From Chloroflexota bacterium (GTDB taxonomy: Bacteria; Chloroflexota; Anaerolineae; B4-G1; SLSP01), in NCBI GenBank assembly GCA_029555965.1, contig JAKQHY010000098.1:1-64000 (forward strand): a DNA stretch of 64,000 nucleotides, given 5' to 3'. The notes below the pieces were generated by a model, which worked only from the letters and a program-made list of their open reading frames with translations, was not told the origin of the DNA and ran no database searches. Shown here one piece after another: positions 49,403 through 53,936 of the stretch. How positions within the stretch are numbered: the first letter of the stretch is position 1; each line of letters begins with the position of its first letter. The position numbers and the translations under genes were made by a program.

Positions 49403-51964
49403 ATGACCGAATTTGTTGTTGAAGATACCACACCGTTAGAAGCGTTGACCCGCGCGCAGCAGACGACGTTTGCCGCGCTGTCCGAGATTGACGAAGAGAC
49501 CCTCCGCAAACTGACGCAACTCACGCTCCCGGAAATCCGCAAAATTCGCCAGGAAGTGGCCGAGGTGTTGCCCGCGGGCAATCTGCCGGCGATGATCCTC
49601 AGCGGCTTGACGCAACTGAAAGGGCGCAAGCTCAAGGCGGAGCGCGTGCGGCAGGACGTCAGCGCGTTGATGCGCGGGTTGAATTTGCTGCCGCAGGGGT
49701 TGTTCAGCCTGTTTGTGGCCGGGCCGGCGACGGTGTTGTATGCCTACCAAAAGTTGCTGCGGCTGGCCGGCAAAGATCTCGCCAGCGCGTTCCCGCAGGG
49801 GATGTGGCAATTCTATCTCGAATTTGGCCTGCGGGAAGATCAAGCGCGACACGCCAACGAGACGACCGGCTTTCAAAAAGCGTTTCCTCAAATTGAATCC
49901 CCGGTGAAAGAAGCCGCGGCCTGGGCTTGCGCCGCTCTGGATTTGCTTTACCGTTATAACGACTTGCTGGCGGTGGATTGGCGCGAGCGCGTGATGTTGC
50001 GCGTGCTGTTGGAAGTCGCCGGGGAAGTTGGCGCAGCCGACGCGCCGTTGCTCAAGACCCTGACCCGTGATTGGAACCGCGCCCGTCCCTATCGCTGCCC
50101 GTCGGGCCATACGGACTATCTGCGCAGTCGGCTGGAGACGTTTGAGCTTTTTCTGAACGAGCGTTTGGAGTGTCTGCCGGAAGCGGTGCGGGCGCAGGTG
50201 CAGGCGCGTTATACGAAGCGCCAACAGGCGGAACTGCCCGCGTATGTGGAGCAGATGTCGCTGCTGGCTGCCCTGACGCCGGAGCAGTACCAGGAAGTCA
50301 AAAAGCCGATTCCGCTGTGGCGCGCTTACCTCGGTTTTGTGTGGAAGGGACAGACACACTTGTTCCCGGTGTGCGAGCGGAACGCGGAAGGCAGCCCGCT
50401 GTGTTATTTGCCGGAGGCGGACCTGGCGCCCATCCCGCTGTACGCCCACGCGGAGGGGTTGTGCGACGCGCAGGGCAATCTCTTGGAGTCCGATGGCGCC
50501 GGACGACTCTGGTATCGAGAGGGGAAGCGTCTGCTGGGGCAGTTGCACCCCGCGCCGCCGGAAACGGTCTACGGATGGGTGGCGGCCGTGTTGTCGTCCA
50601 ACGCGACGGCGACGCTTTCTGACCTGGACTTACAACTGGCGGCCTGCCCGCGCACGCTACAATGGCCTATCCGCGCCGCCTTGCCAAAGCCCACCCAGGC
50701 GGAATTTGAACGGTTGCGCCGTGCGCCGATCCTTCTCAACTGGGATGCATCCTCCCACCGCCAGCCGTTGGCCTACATCCGTCGGGGGCGGCGCGGCATC
50801 GGCGATCACGCACTGACCCTCTTCCGCACGGACAAGAGTATGGTGTTTGACCAGTCGCACATCTTTTTTGATGGGATGTGGGGCGTTGCTGTGGCTGAGA
50901 TCGTGACGAACAGCGCGATGGATTGGTATCAACGCTGGGGGGCGTCTAACAGTTTGCCCCCGGCGACTGCGCTGCGCGCACCCTTGGCGTTGCAATCGTC
51001 AGAAAAAGCAATGGCCTTGCTGGCAAAGGCGCCGCGCATTGCCGAGGTCTCCGCCGAGGCGGATGGGGTGGATGTTGAGCGTATTGCCCGTTTGCGCCGG
51101 CGGTTGAGCGAGCGCGGCGTGGCGCTCACCGTCAACGACTTGTTGCTGCTCTACCGGATCATTCACGCGGCGCAGTATACGCTTTCCGCCTCGATGGAAC
51201 GCGCGTTGACCGCGTTGCAGCGGCGGGTGAAATCGGCGCAGTGCAAGGCCGCGCGGGCCGCTATTGACCAGACCCTCACGCGCTTCCGCGAGACCAATCC
51301 GGCCTTGCTGATCCCGATGGACGCCAGCAACGTCTCGCCGCGCGAGCGTTTGTATCCGGCGACCCTGCGCAATCCCTTGCCGGACCTCCCCCCGGCCTAC
51401 CAGGCCACGCACGACGCCTACCACCAATATTTGCAAGCACATGGCGCAACGGAGTGGCAGGCCTTCGATCAGCAGCGGCGGCGCTTCCTGGCGCACCTCA
51501 AAGTCTTCAGTGAGTTTCAGGATGCCGTCAAGGCGGTGACGATGCGCGGCGAGAGTTTCAACACGGCCACGCTCCGCCTGCTCGGCCACTTGCCGCCGGC
51601 GATGCAACACGTCCTGGATCAGATCCCACAGCGCATCGGCGTGCTCAACGAGGTCATCAAGGGGAACGAGGTCTTCTCCAACGTGGGGCGGGTCACGTCT
51701 GGCAGCAGCCTGCGGCGCTTCCTCAGCGCCAAGGACGACGGCGAGGCGAAAGAACTGGTTTGGGCCGTCCTTACCGACGATCACGACCGGATGCACATCA
51801 CCCTGCGCGATTTCCGTCCCTTTGTGAAGCTACTGCTGGACATGGGCGAATCCGATCTGGCGAATGCGCTGGCGCAGGACTACCTGGATAGCTATGTGCA
51901 AGGGCTGAATCGTTTCATCGCCGGTCTCTACACCTACGTTATGGCTGAGGAGCCGGTCAGTTGA
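49403..51964 (+). CDS. Large protein of unknown function (853 aa)
   Basis: 853 aa, cytoplasmic, no signal or membrane segment. The N-terminal half is mostly helical and contains EFGLREDQARHANETTGF (about residues 141-158), which resembles the ExxRH metal-ligand helices of ferritin-like or heme-oxygenase-like diiron proteins. A beta-rich middle (about 300-480) has FDQSHIFFDGMWG. The C-terminal half is helical with few motifs. I do not recognise the family. Its stop overlaps the promoter of the ABC-F leader. Confidence 0.75.
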   Translation: MTEFVVEDTTPLEALTRAQQTTFAALSEIDEETLRKLTQLTLPEIRKIRQEVAEVLPAGNLPAMILSGLTQLKGRKLKAERVRQDVSALMRGLNLLPQGLFSLFVAGPATVLYAYQKLLRLAGKDLASAFPQGMWQFYLEFGLREDQARHANETTGFQKAFPQIESPVKEAAAWACAALDLLYRYNDLLAVDWRERVMLRVLLEVAGEVGAADAPLLKTLTRDWNRARPYRCPSGHTDYLRSRLETFELFLNERLECLPEAVRAQVQARYTKRQQAELPAYVEQMSLLAALTPEQYQEVKKPIPLWRAYLGFVWKGQTHLFPVCERNAEGSPLCYLPEADLAPIPLYAHAEGLCDAQGNLLESDGAGRLWYREGKRLLGQLHPAPPETVYGWVAAVLSSNATATLSDLDLQLAACPRTLQWPIRAALPKPTQAEFERLRRAPILLNWDASSHRQPLAYIRRGRRGIGDHALTLFRTDKSMVFDQSHIFFDGMWGVAVAEIVTNSAMDWYQRWGASNSLPPATALRAPLALQSSEKAMALLAKAPRIAEVSAEADGVDVERIARLRRRLSERGVALTVNDLLLLYRIIHAAQYTLSASMERALTALQRRVKSAQCKAARAAIDQTLTRFRETNPALLIPMDASNVSPRERLYPATLRNPLPDLPPAYQATHDAYHQYLQAHGATEWQAFDQQRRRFLAHLKVFSEFQDAVKAVTMRGESFNTATLRLLGHLPPAMQHVLDQIPQRIGVLNEVIKGNEVFSNVGRVTSGSSLRRFLSAKDDGEAKELVWAVLTDDHDRMHITLRDFRPFVKLLLDMGESDLANALAQDYLDSYVQGLNRFIAGLYTYVMAEEPVS

Positions 51965-51988
51965 CATTTCACATCTTTGGCATATAAT
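51961..51988 (+). promoter_or_regulatory. Consensus promoter of the ABC-F leader
   Basis: TTGACA (51961-51966), 16 nt, TATAAT (51983-51988): a perfect match in both boxes. It overlaps the stop codon of the preceding gene. Transcription should start near 51995, about 240 nt before the ABC-F start. Confidence 0.85.
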
Positions 51989-52078
51989 CTTGGAAATCGG
52001 AAATAAGAAATAGGTAATTAGAAATCAGTAACTCATTTCTCATTACTCATTACCAATTTCCAATTTCCAATTTCTTTT
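51989..52078. repeat. Heptamer array inside the ABC-F leader
   Basis: Units GGAAATC, GGAAATA, AGAAATA, GGTAATT, then ATTTCTC, ATTACTC, ATTTCCA. The two halves are complementary, so most of the transcribed leader before the short ORF should fold into a long imperfect hairpin. Confidence 0.75.
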
Positions 52079-52087
52079 AAGGAGGGC

Positions 52088-52145
52088 ACAGGGATGATAG
52101 TGATGCTGCACGCTTTGTCATATTGTGGGCGCATGGCATCCCTGT
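52088..52145 (+). promoter_or_regulatory. Leader hairpin that covers the leader ORF start
   Basis: ACAGGGATG (52088-52096) pairs exactly over 9 bp with CATCCCTGT (52137-52145). The left arm contains the leader ATG. A ribosome on the leader ORF would open the stem. Confidence 0.7.
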
Positions 52146-52153
52146 TCCATTAG
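52094..52153 (+). CDS. 19-codon leader peptide of the ABC-F gene
   Basis: ATG 52094 to TAG 52151-52153 encodes MIVMLHALSYCGRMASLFH. AGGAGGG lies 7 nt before the ATG, as good an SD as any gene here. No similarity is claimed. Its place, between a consensus promoter and a terminator just before an ABC-F gene, matches the layout of antibiotic-sensing leader peptides of ABC-F genes in Firmicutes (for example vmlR and msr-type genes). The role is inferred from that layout. Confidence 0.65.
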   Translation: MIVMLHALSYCGRMASLFH

Positions 52154-52185
52154 GTAAACCCTAACTACTATAGTTTGTGATCTCA

Positions 52186-52218
52186 GGCCGTGGTGCGTTA
52201 TTGCCCACGGCCTTTTTT
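52186..52218 (+). terminator. Attenuator terminator in front of the ABC-F gene
   Basis: GGCCGTGG (52186-52193) pairs with CCACGGCC (52205-52212), followed by TTTTTT (52213-52218), 18 nt before the ABC-F start. GCCCAC (52203-52208) in its right arm is complementary to GTGGGC (52125-52130) inside the leader ORF, giving a possible anti-terminator pairing. Confidence 0.8.
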
Positions 52219-52235
52219 GTTGTCTGGAGGTATCT

Positions 52236-53936
52236 ATGTTACAACTCTCAAATATCAGCAAGCGGTATGGCGACGCATTGGTGTTGGATAACGTCTCGTG
52301 TACTATCAACATGGGAGAACGCATCGGCTTGATCGGCCCGAATGGGTGCGGCAAGACCACGTTGCTGCGCATCATCGTCGGCGCCGAAGCGCCGGACACC
52401 GGTTCGGTGCGCACAGATCCGCCGGACTTGCAGGTGGGGTATCTTGAGCAAGGCTGGCGTTACGACGAGACGTGTACGGTGGACGAAGTGCTGCGCCCCA
52501 CCCATAGCGAGATGGAACGCCTGGAAACGCAGATAGGCGAGCTGTCGGCGGCGCTGGCGACCGCTGAGGGGACCGCGCAGTCTCAATTGCTCGATGCCTA
52601 TGGCGAGGCGCTGGCGCGCCTTGAACGCCTGGCCGCCGCCGAAGTTACGGAGCATCAAGCGCAGGCTATTCTTTCCGGCCTGGGGTTGGCCGAAGTCCCG
52701 CTGGAATCGCCGGTGGCGCACCTCAGCGGCGGGCAGAAGACGCGGTTGGGGCTGGCGCGGCTCTTGTTGCAAAGTCCACAAGTGCTGCTGCTCGACGAGC
52801 CGACCAATCATCTGGACATCGCCGCGCTGGAGTGGCTGGAGGCATGGCTGCGACGTTATCCGGGGGCGGTGTTGCTGGTGTCTCACGACCGGGCATTTCT
52901 CGACAACACCGTCACGCAAATTCTCGACCTCGATCCGCTCACCCATACTCTCACCGCGTATCCCGGCAACTACTCGGATTACATCGAAGAGTGGACGCGC
53001 CGCCGCGAGAAGCAGTGGGCGCAGTGGCGTGACGAGCAAGCCGAGGTCCGCCGTTTGCAGGCTGATATTCACCGCACCAAGATGCAGGCGATGAGTGTTG
53101 AGCTGACCACTACGCCCGGCGATCCCACTATCCGGCGGTACGCGAAGAAGGTCGCCAAGAAAGCGGTATCCCGTGAGAAGCGGCTGGAACGGTATCAGGA
53201 AAGCGAGGAGCGGGTGGAAAAACCGGCCGCCTCGTGGCAGATGAAGTTGGAGTTTGGGGACACGCCCACCAGCGGGCAAGACGTGCTTGTGATCAAGGGG
53301 CTATCCGCCGGATACAACGGTCGCCCGCTGTTTTCAGACGTAGACCTTACGCTGCGCCAGGGGGAGCGGGTGGCGCTCATCGGGCCGAACGGCGCGGGCA
53401 AGACGACGTTGCTGCGGGTGCTCACCGGACAACTGTCGCCGTTGGCCGGGGAAGTGCGGCTGGGCGCTCGCGTCCGCCTGGGCTACTACGCGCAGGAACA
53501 GGAGACCCTCGACCCGCGCAGCACACCCTTTGAAACCGTCCGCGCAGTAGCGGCGATGTCGGATACGGACGTGCGTTCGTTCCTGCATTACTTCCTCTTT
53601 GCCGGGGACGACGTTTTCACGCCGGTGGGCAGCCTGAGCTATGGCGAGCGGGCGCGGCTGACGCTGGCGCGACTCGTTGCGCAGGGCTGCAACTGCCTGC
53701 TGCTGGACGAACCGATCAACCATCTGGACATCCCCAGCCGCGCCGGATTCGAGCGGGCGATGGCGGCGTTTGAGGGCACGGTGCTCGCCGTCGTCCACGA
53801 CCGCTACTTCATCCAACACTTCGCCACGCAGGTGTGGGCCGTGGAGGGCGGCGCGGTGCAGCAGTACGTGGATTTGGAGGACTATCAGCGGGGGCGCGCC
53901 GTGGCGCGGTCAAAGATTGGCTCCGGCAGCGAATAG
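52236..53936 (+). CDS. ABC-F family ATPase, probable ribosome-associated factor
   Basis: 566 aa, two ABC domains and no membrane segment. Domain 1: GPNGCGKTT, LSGGQKTR, LLLDEPTNHLD. The linker (about 250-345) is long and charged, as in ribosome-acting ABC-F factors. Domain 2: GPNGAGKTT, a non-canonical signature LSYGERAR, LLLDEPINHLDI. ABC-F proteins bind the ribosomal E site; some protect from antibiotics, others (EttA type) tune translation. The attenuator-like leader favours the antibiotic-protection type. GGAGG lies 5 nt before ATG. Confidence 0.88.
   Translation: MLQLSNISKRYGDALVLDNVSCTINMGERIGLIGPNGCGKTTLLRIIVGAEAPDTGSVRTDPPDLQVGYLEQGWRYDETCTVDEVLRPTHSEMERLETQIGELSAALATAEGTAQSQLLDAYGEALARLERLAAAEVTEHQAQAILSGLGLAEVPLESPVAHLSGGQKTRLGLARLLLQSPQVLLLDEPTNHLDIAALEWLEAWLRRYPGAVLLVSHDRAFLDNTVTQILDLDPLTHTLTAYPGNYSDYIEEWTRRREKQWAQWRDEQAEVRRLQADIHRTKMQAMSVELTTTPGDPTIRRYAKKVAKKAVSREKRLERYQESEERVEKPAASWQMKLEFGDTPTSGQDVLVIKGLSAGYNGRPLFSDVDLTLRQGERVALIGPNGAGKTTLLRVLTGQLSPLAGEVRLGARVRLGYYAQEQETLDPRSTPFETVRAVAAMSDTDVRSFLHYFLFAGDDVFTPVGSLSYGERARLTLARLVAQGCNCLLLDEPINHLDIPSRAGFERAMAAFEGTVLAVVHDRYFIQHFATQVWAVEGGAVQQYVDLEDYQRGRAVARSKIGSGSE

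Follow-up and report, generated by a model that had tools for sequence, protein, structure and literature searches.

We analysed a 64,000-nucleotide stretch of DNA from a Chloroflexota bacterium (assembly GCA_029555965.1, contig JAKQHY010000098.1, positions 1 to 64,000; hereafter the window), in which a gene for a ribosomal-protection-like ABC-F ATPase is preceded by a short upstream open reading frame (uORF) and a predicted intrinsic terminator. This leader is likely to be a ribosome-mediated transcription attenuator that turns the ABC-F gene on in response to a ribosome held over the first uORF codons. The order of promoter, translatable uORF, predicted intrinsic terminator and gene is the layout of an attenuator, and is kept in orthologous loci. 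The parts of the locus, in which SD denotes a Shine-Dalgarno sequence, are as follows.

51961-51988, forward strand: sigma-70-type promoter TTGACA-N16-TATAAT (TTGACA 51961-51966, TATAAT 51983-51988), 12/12 consensus positions
51994-52074, forward strand: heptad-repeat array (GGAAATN ... CATTACT, AATTTCC), read from the sequence; folding makes a long hairpin possible
52079-52085, forward strand: SD of the uORF, AAGGAGG; an SD precedes the uORF in all orthologous leaders
52088-52096, forward strand: anti-antiterminator 5' arm ACAGGGATG, start codon included; pairs with 52137-52145
52094-52153, forward strand: uORF of 19 codons, peptide MIVMLHALSYCGRMASLFH, stop codon TAG; a uORF is also present in orthologous loci
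52125-52137, forward strand: candidate antiterminator strand GTGGGCGCATGGC; 52128-52134 pairs with 52193-52199 in the terminator 5' arm and loop
52137-52145, forward strand: anti-antiterminator 3' arm CATCCCTGT, within the uORF; exact complement of ACAGGGATG
52185-52218, forward strand: predicted intrinsic terminator, stem AGGCCGTGG (52185-52193) and CCACGGCCT (52205-52213), T tract to 52218
52226-52230, forward strand: SD of the ABC-F gene, GGAGG
52236-53936, forward strand: ABC-F ATPase, ribosomal-protection-like, 566 aa; NCBIfam NF000355, 442 bits against a cut-off of 380

A previous sequence-only reading of this DNA had proposed the promoter, the strong SD, the 19-codon ORF, the hairpin that hides its start and the terminator, and all of these were found where it had placed them. 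The promoter overlaps the stop codon of an upstream 853-aa ORF (49403-51964); by chance, the 5 kb scanned should contain approximately 1.2 promoter sites scoring at least 9/12. The terminator was overlooked by a simple terminator scan, as its loop exceeds 8 nt, and was matched by both covariance models described below (R1 at 52078-52223, R2 at 52114-52220). Seventeen nucleotides separate its T tract, the presumed transcript end, from the ABC-F ATG at 52236. The fold energy of 51995-52236 (z -3.8) alone proves little, because part of it is supplied by the heptad-repeat hairpin (~51994-52074) between promoter and SD. This array falls outside the conserved switch, and is missing from most orthologues, where the SD sits 22-37 nt past the -10 box. 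Heptad arrays between promoter and SD were seen in the window and in locus L010, with different heptads; in L120, an assembly with no ABC-F, an array directly follows an orphan leader.

The leader is conserved among orthologous ABC-F genes. A match to the ABC-F passing an E-value of 1e-120 was present in 17 of the 24 genomes of the family, and the order SD, uORF, terminator and ABC-F was kept in 14 loci besides the window (L010, L012-L016, L019-L021, L025 and L121-L124; ABC-F presence checked). In all 11 orthologous leaders measured, the promoter had a spacer of exactly 16 nt and matched 10-12 of the 12 consensus positions, and GCCGTGG of the terminator 5' arm was invariant in 11 orthologues. 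The uORFs of the 15 orthologous loci (window included) ranged from 6 to 28 codons with mostly unrelated peptides, and their stop codons lay 23-59 nt 5' of the terminator stem. The exact stem pattern was found twice in the 4.9 Mb genome, each time before an ABC-F gene. The leader therefore exceeds what chance would produce, given the common order in 14 orthologous loci and a stem pattern found in this genome solely before ABC-F genes. Metagenome-assembled genomes break at some of the leaders.

The uORF start region of the window is held in an anti-antiterminator (52088-52096 with 52137-52145), part of which is shared with the antiterminator strand. Calling the start region 1 and the uORF end region 2, we found the two paired in 13 of the 16 leaders (the 15 orthologous loci and L120). 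This pairing was stronger than with a shuffled region 2 (z about -7 for all leaders, -9 without L019-L021). When each region 1 was matched with its own or a permuted region 2, 181 of 20000 permutations reached the own value for all 16 leaders; subsets were weak (z -1.5). A compensatory change between two related leaders, CAGGGATG/CATCCCTG in L010 against CAGGAATG/CATTCCTG in L120, turns a Ser codon into Phe. With its structure and alternative hairpins, such a leader could also bind a ligand or a protein, and thereby act as a riboswitch or protein-controlled leader. We give this scarcely any probability: no Rfam family reached its gathering score in the window or in 18 leader loci, and what is conserved is a translatable uORF with an SD and its start inside a hairpin.

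We modelled the effect of ribosome position by folding nascent RNA that ends before the terminator 3' arm, and counting the expected pairs of the uORF segment with the terminator 5' arm and loop. For the window leader this gave 0.24 antiterminator pairs on ribosome-free RNA; a ribosome placed at codons 1-8 raised the value to 5.3-10.6, and at codon 9 it was 0.27. Averaged over the 16 leaders, the count rose from 1.4 to 7-10 and fell again as the ribosome position advanced. The group switch was 8.7 pairs, compared with 4.1 +/- 0.95 in 60 dinucleotide shuffles of the segment (largest 6.8). These models support the switch for the group and make it no more than plausible for the window leader alone. 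Other measures were less useful. Whole-duplex energies for complete leaders paired with terminators were set aside as too noisy, and the pairing probability of the terminator 5' arm with anything upstream was uninformative because this G-rich arm always finds a partner; it was replaced by the count of antiterminator pairs. When the leaders were simply folded to minimum energy with a ribosome footprint, no single antiterminator was common to them.

These results suggest the following mechanism. On an untranslated leader, region 1 (CAGGGATG) would pair with region 2 (CATCCCTG) and sequester the antiterminator strand, leaving the terminator to form. On a freely translated leader, the ribosome would cover the antiterminator strand, and the terminator would form again. 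A ribosome at about codons 1-8 would instead hide region 1 and leave the antiterminator strand open to pair with the 5' arm and loop of the terminator; its GGGC might also pair with GCCC in the 3' arm. With the terminator blocked, RNA polymerase would continue into the ABC-F gene. The sequence-only reading had placed the switch in GTGGGC (52125-52130), which is indeed the exact complement of GCCCAC in the terminator (52203-52208) and offers a second possible contact for the antiterminator strand. Its core idea, an early-held ribosome that turns on the ABC-F, is well supported by conservation and ribosome-position folding. Pairing of GTGGGC with the 3' arm as the sole switch is incomplete, because the 3' arm is made last and beside its own partner. 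We consider pairing with the 5' arm the likelier decision step, and the GTGGGC:GCCCAC pairing an added contact.

Several observations weigh against this reading of the leader. The usual pairing of regions 1 and 2 is missing in L019-L021, and the fold switch is not seen in L021 or L121. Taken by itself, the window leader gave no significant switch, as 12% of shuffles were equally large. Both the window and its group allow alternative pairing of antiterminator and terminator, and a significant preference for the own over a swapped terminator was found only in the wider class described below; in the window's group, covariation was weak (z -1.7 for the whole terminator, -0.7 for the 5' arm), and 12 non-redundant leaders showed none. 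The upstream regions of the orthologues L023 and L026 were read and have no such leader. Finally, L018 keeps the terminator without a uORF. It is the only orthologue in which the terminator is kept and the ORF lost, a pattern that the sequence-only reading had counted against an attenuator, and foreign-looking DNA occupies the leader position directly upstream of its terminator. At ~430-530 in L018, an attC-like inverted sequence and unrelated DNA stand in the uORF's place, either by insertion or by misassembly.

L018 also bears on a simpler arrangement, in which the terminator merely ends upstream transcription, the short ORF is there by chance and the ABC-F is expressed constitutively; intergenic terminators are common, which would fit. 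This seems very unlikely. The promoter lies upstream of both uORF and terminator, and the gene's own transcript must cross them. SD, uORF, promoter spacing and terminator travel together in orthologous loci, and both copies of the stem pattern in the genome precede ABC-F genes.

Leaders of similar layout were found more widely. R1, a covariance model made from the 11 first leaders, matched 86 of 396 genomes of the class at E 0.01, and R2, a second model built without the window, matched 37 of 400 genomes of the phylum at E 1e-5; the models were short-calibrated, and these E-values are rough. R2 ranked the window leader first in its own genome (E 5e-4), followed by the leader of a second ABC-F gene on contig 210. 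Named relatives (Anaerolineae, Litorilinea, Ktedonobacterales) agree with the assignment to Chloroflexota. In a taxonomic control of 80 named loci among the matches listed for the ABC-F alignment, mostly non-orthologues, only L063 and L095 were near the threshold (E 0.013 and 0.018); both are from Chloroflexota and matched through the terminator part alone.

Approximately 100 further loci were inspected, and among them were leaders whose uORFs often end in RSAP, and are followed by the RNA motif YCGYAGUGCGCCY and by one or two terminators of the GGCCGUGGGCGC type. The motif is complementary to the 5' arm and loop of its own terminator, and this extends to variants (UCGCAG/CUGCGA, GGAG/CUCC). 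Pairing of the motif with its own terminator had a mean energy of -23.2 over 46 leaders, against -20.5 for permuted terminators (z -6.6, 0/20000); 25 non-redundant leaders gave z -5.0. In a second set of 28 leaders, taken from the R2 matches, the values were -20.9 and -17.6 (z -6.2, 0/20000), and z -4.6 for 13 non-redundant leaders without L225, which is the same place as the earlier locus L210. The permutations leave some relatedness in, which the non-redundant subsets address in part.

The genes behind ~127 model matches, classed by similarity to nine seed proteins, were ABC-F (21), ABC-2 ATPase (22), ABC-2 permease (2), ABC exporter (20), GNAT acetyltransferase (24), HAD (3), RsgA-like (2) and other or unclear (33); chance terminators probably account for many in this final category. 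Single genomes can hold several leaders, and in G106 they precede genes for an ABC-F, an exporter and a GNAT protein. The wider class has layout, terminator and model score in common with the window's group and differs from it in the antiterminator motif. On balance we lean slightly towards regarding the window leader as one form of a phylum-wide, modular family of Chloroflexota attenuators, which would stand before unrelated resistance-type genes (ABC-F, ABC-2/exporter, GNAT), several per genome. Each would combine an antiterminator, YCGYAGUGCGCCY or in the window's group GGGC-N-GCRYC, with a terminator of the form GGCCGUGGGNGC, and stalling would switch the sets on in cis, without a common protein regulator. 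If this is true, the largely uncultured Chloroflexota hold a resistance-type gene set under one recurring ribosome-read RNA switch, the leaders become metagenome markers for genes that respond to ribosome drugs, and the family is a clean case of a single attenuator design reused before unrelated genes.

Two features of these wider-class leaders were also observed. In many of them (L144, L150, L153, L155, L164, L167, L175, L199), TTGACATAA or its reverse complement TTATGTCAA lies between uORF and terminator. Tandem terminators follow a single uORF in L160, L161, L166, L187, L197 and others, possibly giving tighter shut-off or two-step readthrough.

Conservation in the window's group appears to follow the RNA rather than the leader peptide. 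GGGCG is common to many leaders near codons 10-13, where it is read as Gly-Arg; this dipeptide is encoded at about these codons in 7 of the 11 first leaders, and the Gly codon is always GGG. GGGC sits in a different frame in L012, and in L122 the uORF ends after 6 codons, yet GGGC and GCATCCC are retained beyond the stop. We conclude that it is the RNA layout which is conserved, because the leader peptides differ. This bears on peptide-specific stalling, in which a drug such as a macrolide arrests the ribosome on a particular nascent peptide, as with ErmCL or MsrDL. The frequent Gly-Arg and the RSAP ending of many wider-class uORFs would suit such a mechanism, but the invariant GGG codon, the GGGC that is out of frame or outside the uORF, and wider-class motifs that are cut by the uORF stop (L151, L154, L187, L200) or shifted to another frame (L134, L138) make it quite improbable. 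Macrolide-type peptide sensing was accordingly set aside. In one part of the phylum (L223-L267), the uORF C-terminus [PD]SRSAP[VI].R is strongly kept as a peptide, and a peptide role beside the RNA role might exist there; we take this C-terminus to resemble known RAPP-type arrest motifs in part.

Any cause that holds a ribosome early on the uORF would suffice for the proposed switch. It could in principle report slow or failed translation in general, through starvation, an alarmone or ribosome shortage, instead of a drug, and wider-class leaders also precede genes for an RsgA-like ribosome GTPase and HAD proteins. We regard this as unlikely, as most of the genes controlled encode ABC-F proteins, efflux-type transporters or acetyltransferases rather than biosynthetic enzymes, and the uORFs are without a run of regulatory codons. 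The most likely natural signal for the attenuator is a drug of the lincosamide, pleuromutilin and streptogramin A class, which halts ribosomes at initiation or immediately afterwards and would presumably bring about readthrough into the ABC-F gene.

Drug-induced attenuation of ABC-F genes has been described in Firmicutes (PMC9226507) and Actinobacteria (PMC12421871). The sequence-only reading knew of no case in Chloroflexota, and we found none in the literature searched, which had subscription papers largely outside it. The nearest parallel is the vmlR leader of Bacillus subtilis, where a ribosome halted at the start of the uORF sets an antiterminator free and keeps intrinsic termination from occurring, and peptide variants still work (PMC9226507). 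Both systems have an ABC-F gene and a uORF within an anti-antiterminator hairpin. By analogy, the window leader would follow the same switching logic, in which a ribosome at the start of the uORF opens the anti-antiterminator; the likeness is one of logic and not of alignment. The vmlR uORF has 3 codons, compared with 6-28 here, and belongs to Bacilli rather than Chloroflexota; its leader adds a pause hairpin and an SD-hiding hairpin as further layers; and induction has been demonstrated for vmlR (PMC9226507), whereas here it is predicted from sequence and folding.

Lincosamide, streptogramin A and pleuromutilin drugs cause ribosomes to stall at the uORF start codon in two leaders of Streptomyces coelicolor, tiaA and are5sc (ARE5 ABC-F) (PMC12421871). 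These leaders are alike in layout, with a short uORF and a premature terminator, and differ in ABC-F subfamily and phylum (PMC12421871). In the bmrBCD leader of B. subtilis, which controls an ABC drug exporter and corresponds to those wider-class leaders that precede exporters, terminator, antiterminator and anti-antiterminator overlap the leader ORF; that ORF has 53 codons and contains the terminator, which here lies after the uORF (PMC4191407). The streptococcal msrD leader also places an ABC-F gene under ribosome-mediated attenuation, but through macrolide-dependent stalling on the leader peptide, whereas leader peptides are not conserved here (PMC10314930).

The product of the controlled gene belongs by sequence to the ribosomal-protection-like ABC-F family, and the ribosome is its presumed protection target. 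It matches the ABC_tran and ABC_tran_Xtn domains, and its nearest solved chains are ABC-F proteins, including ExpZ, PoxtA, Lmo0919 and LsaA. All models for the named antibiotic resistance (ARE) groups (Vga, Lsa, Msr, OptrA, CarA, Sal) were far below their cut-offs, and we have therefore not filed the protein under a named group; models for EttA, Uup and similar proteins were likewise far below theirs. One or two in-frame TGA codons are present in the ABC-F orthologues L026 (G028), L027 (G027) and L018 (G006), which may reflect decay or assembly error. The second ABC-F of the same genome (G000:C210, ~50710-51050; L217, L002) is 41% identical and has its own leader, with the uORF MLTISLGKTFIGIYGFIGSSGAHRL, a GTGCGCC motif directly past its stop codon and two tandem terminators.

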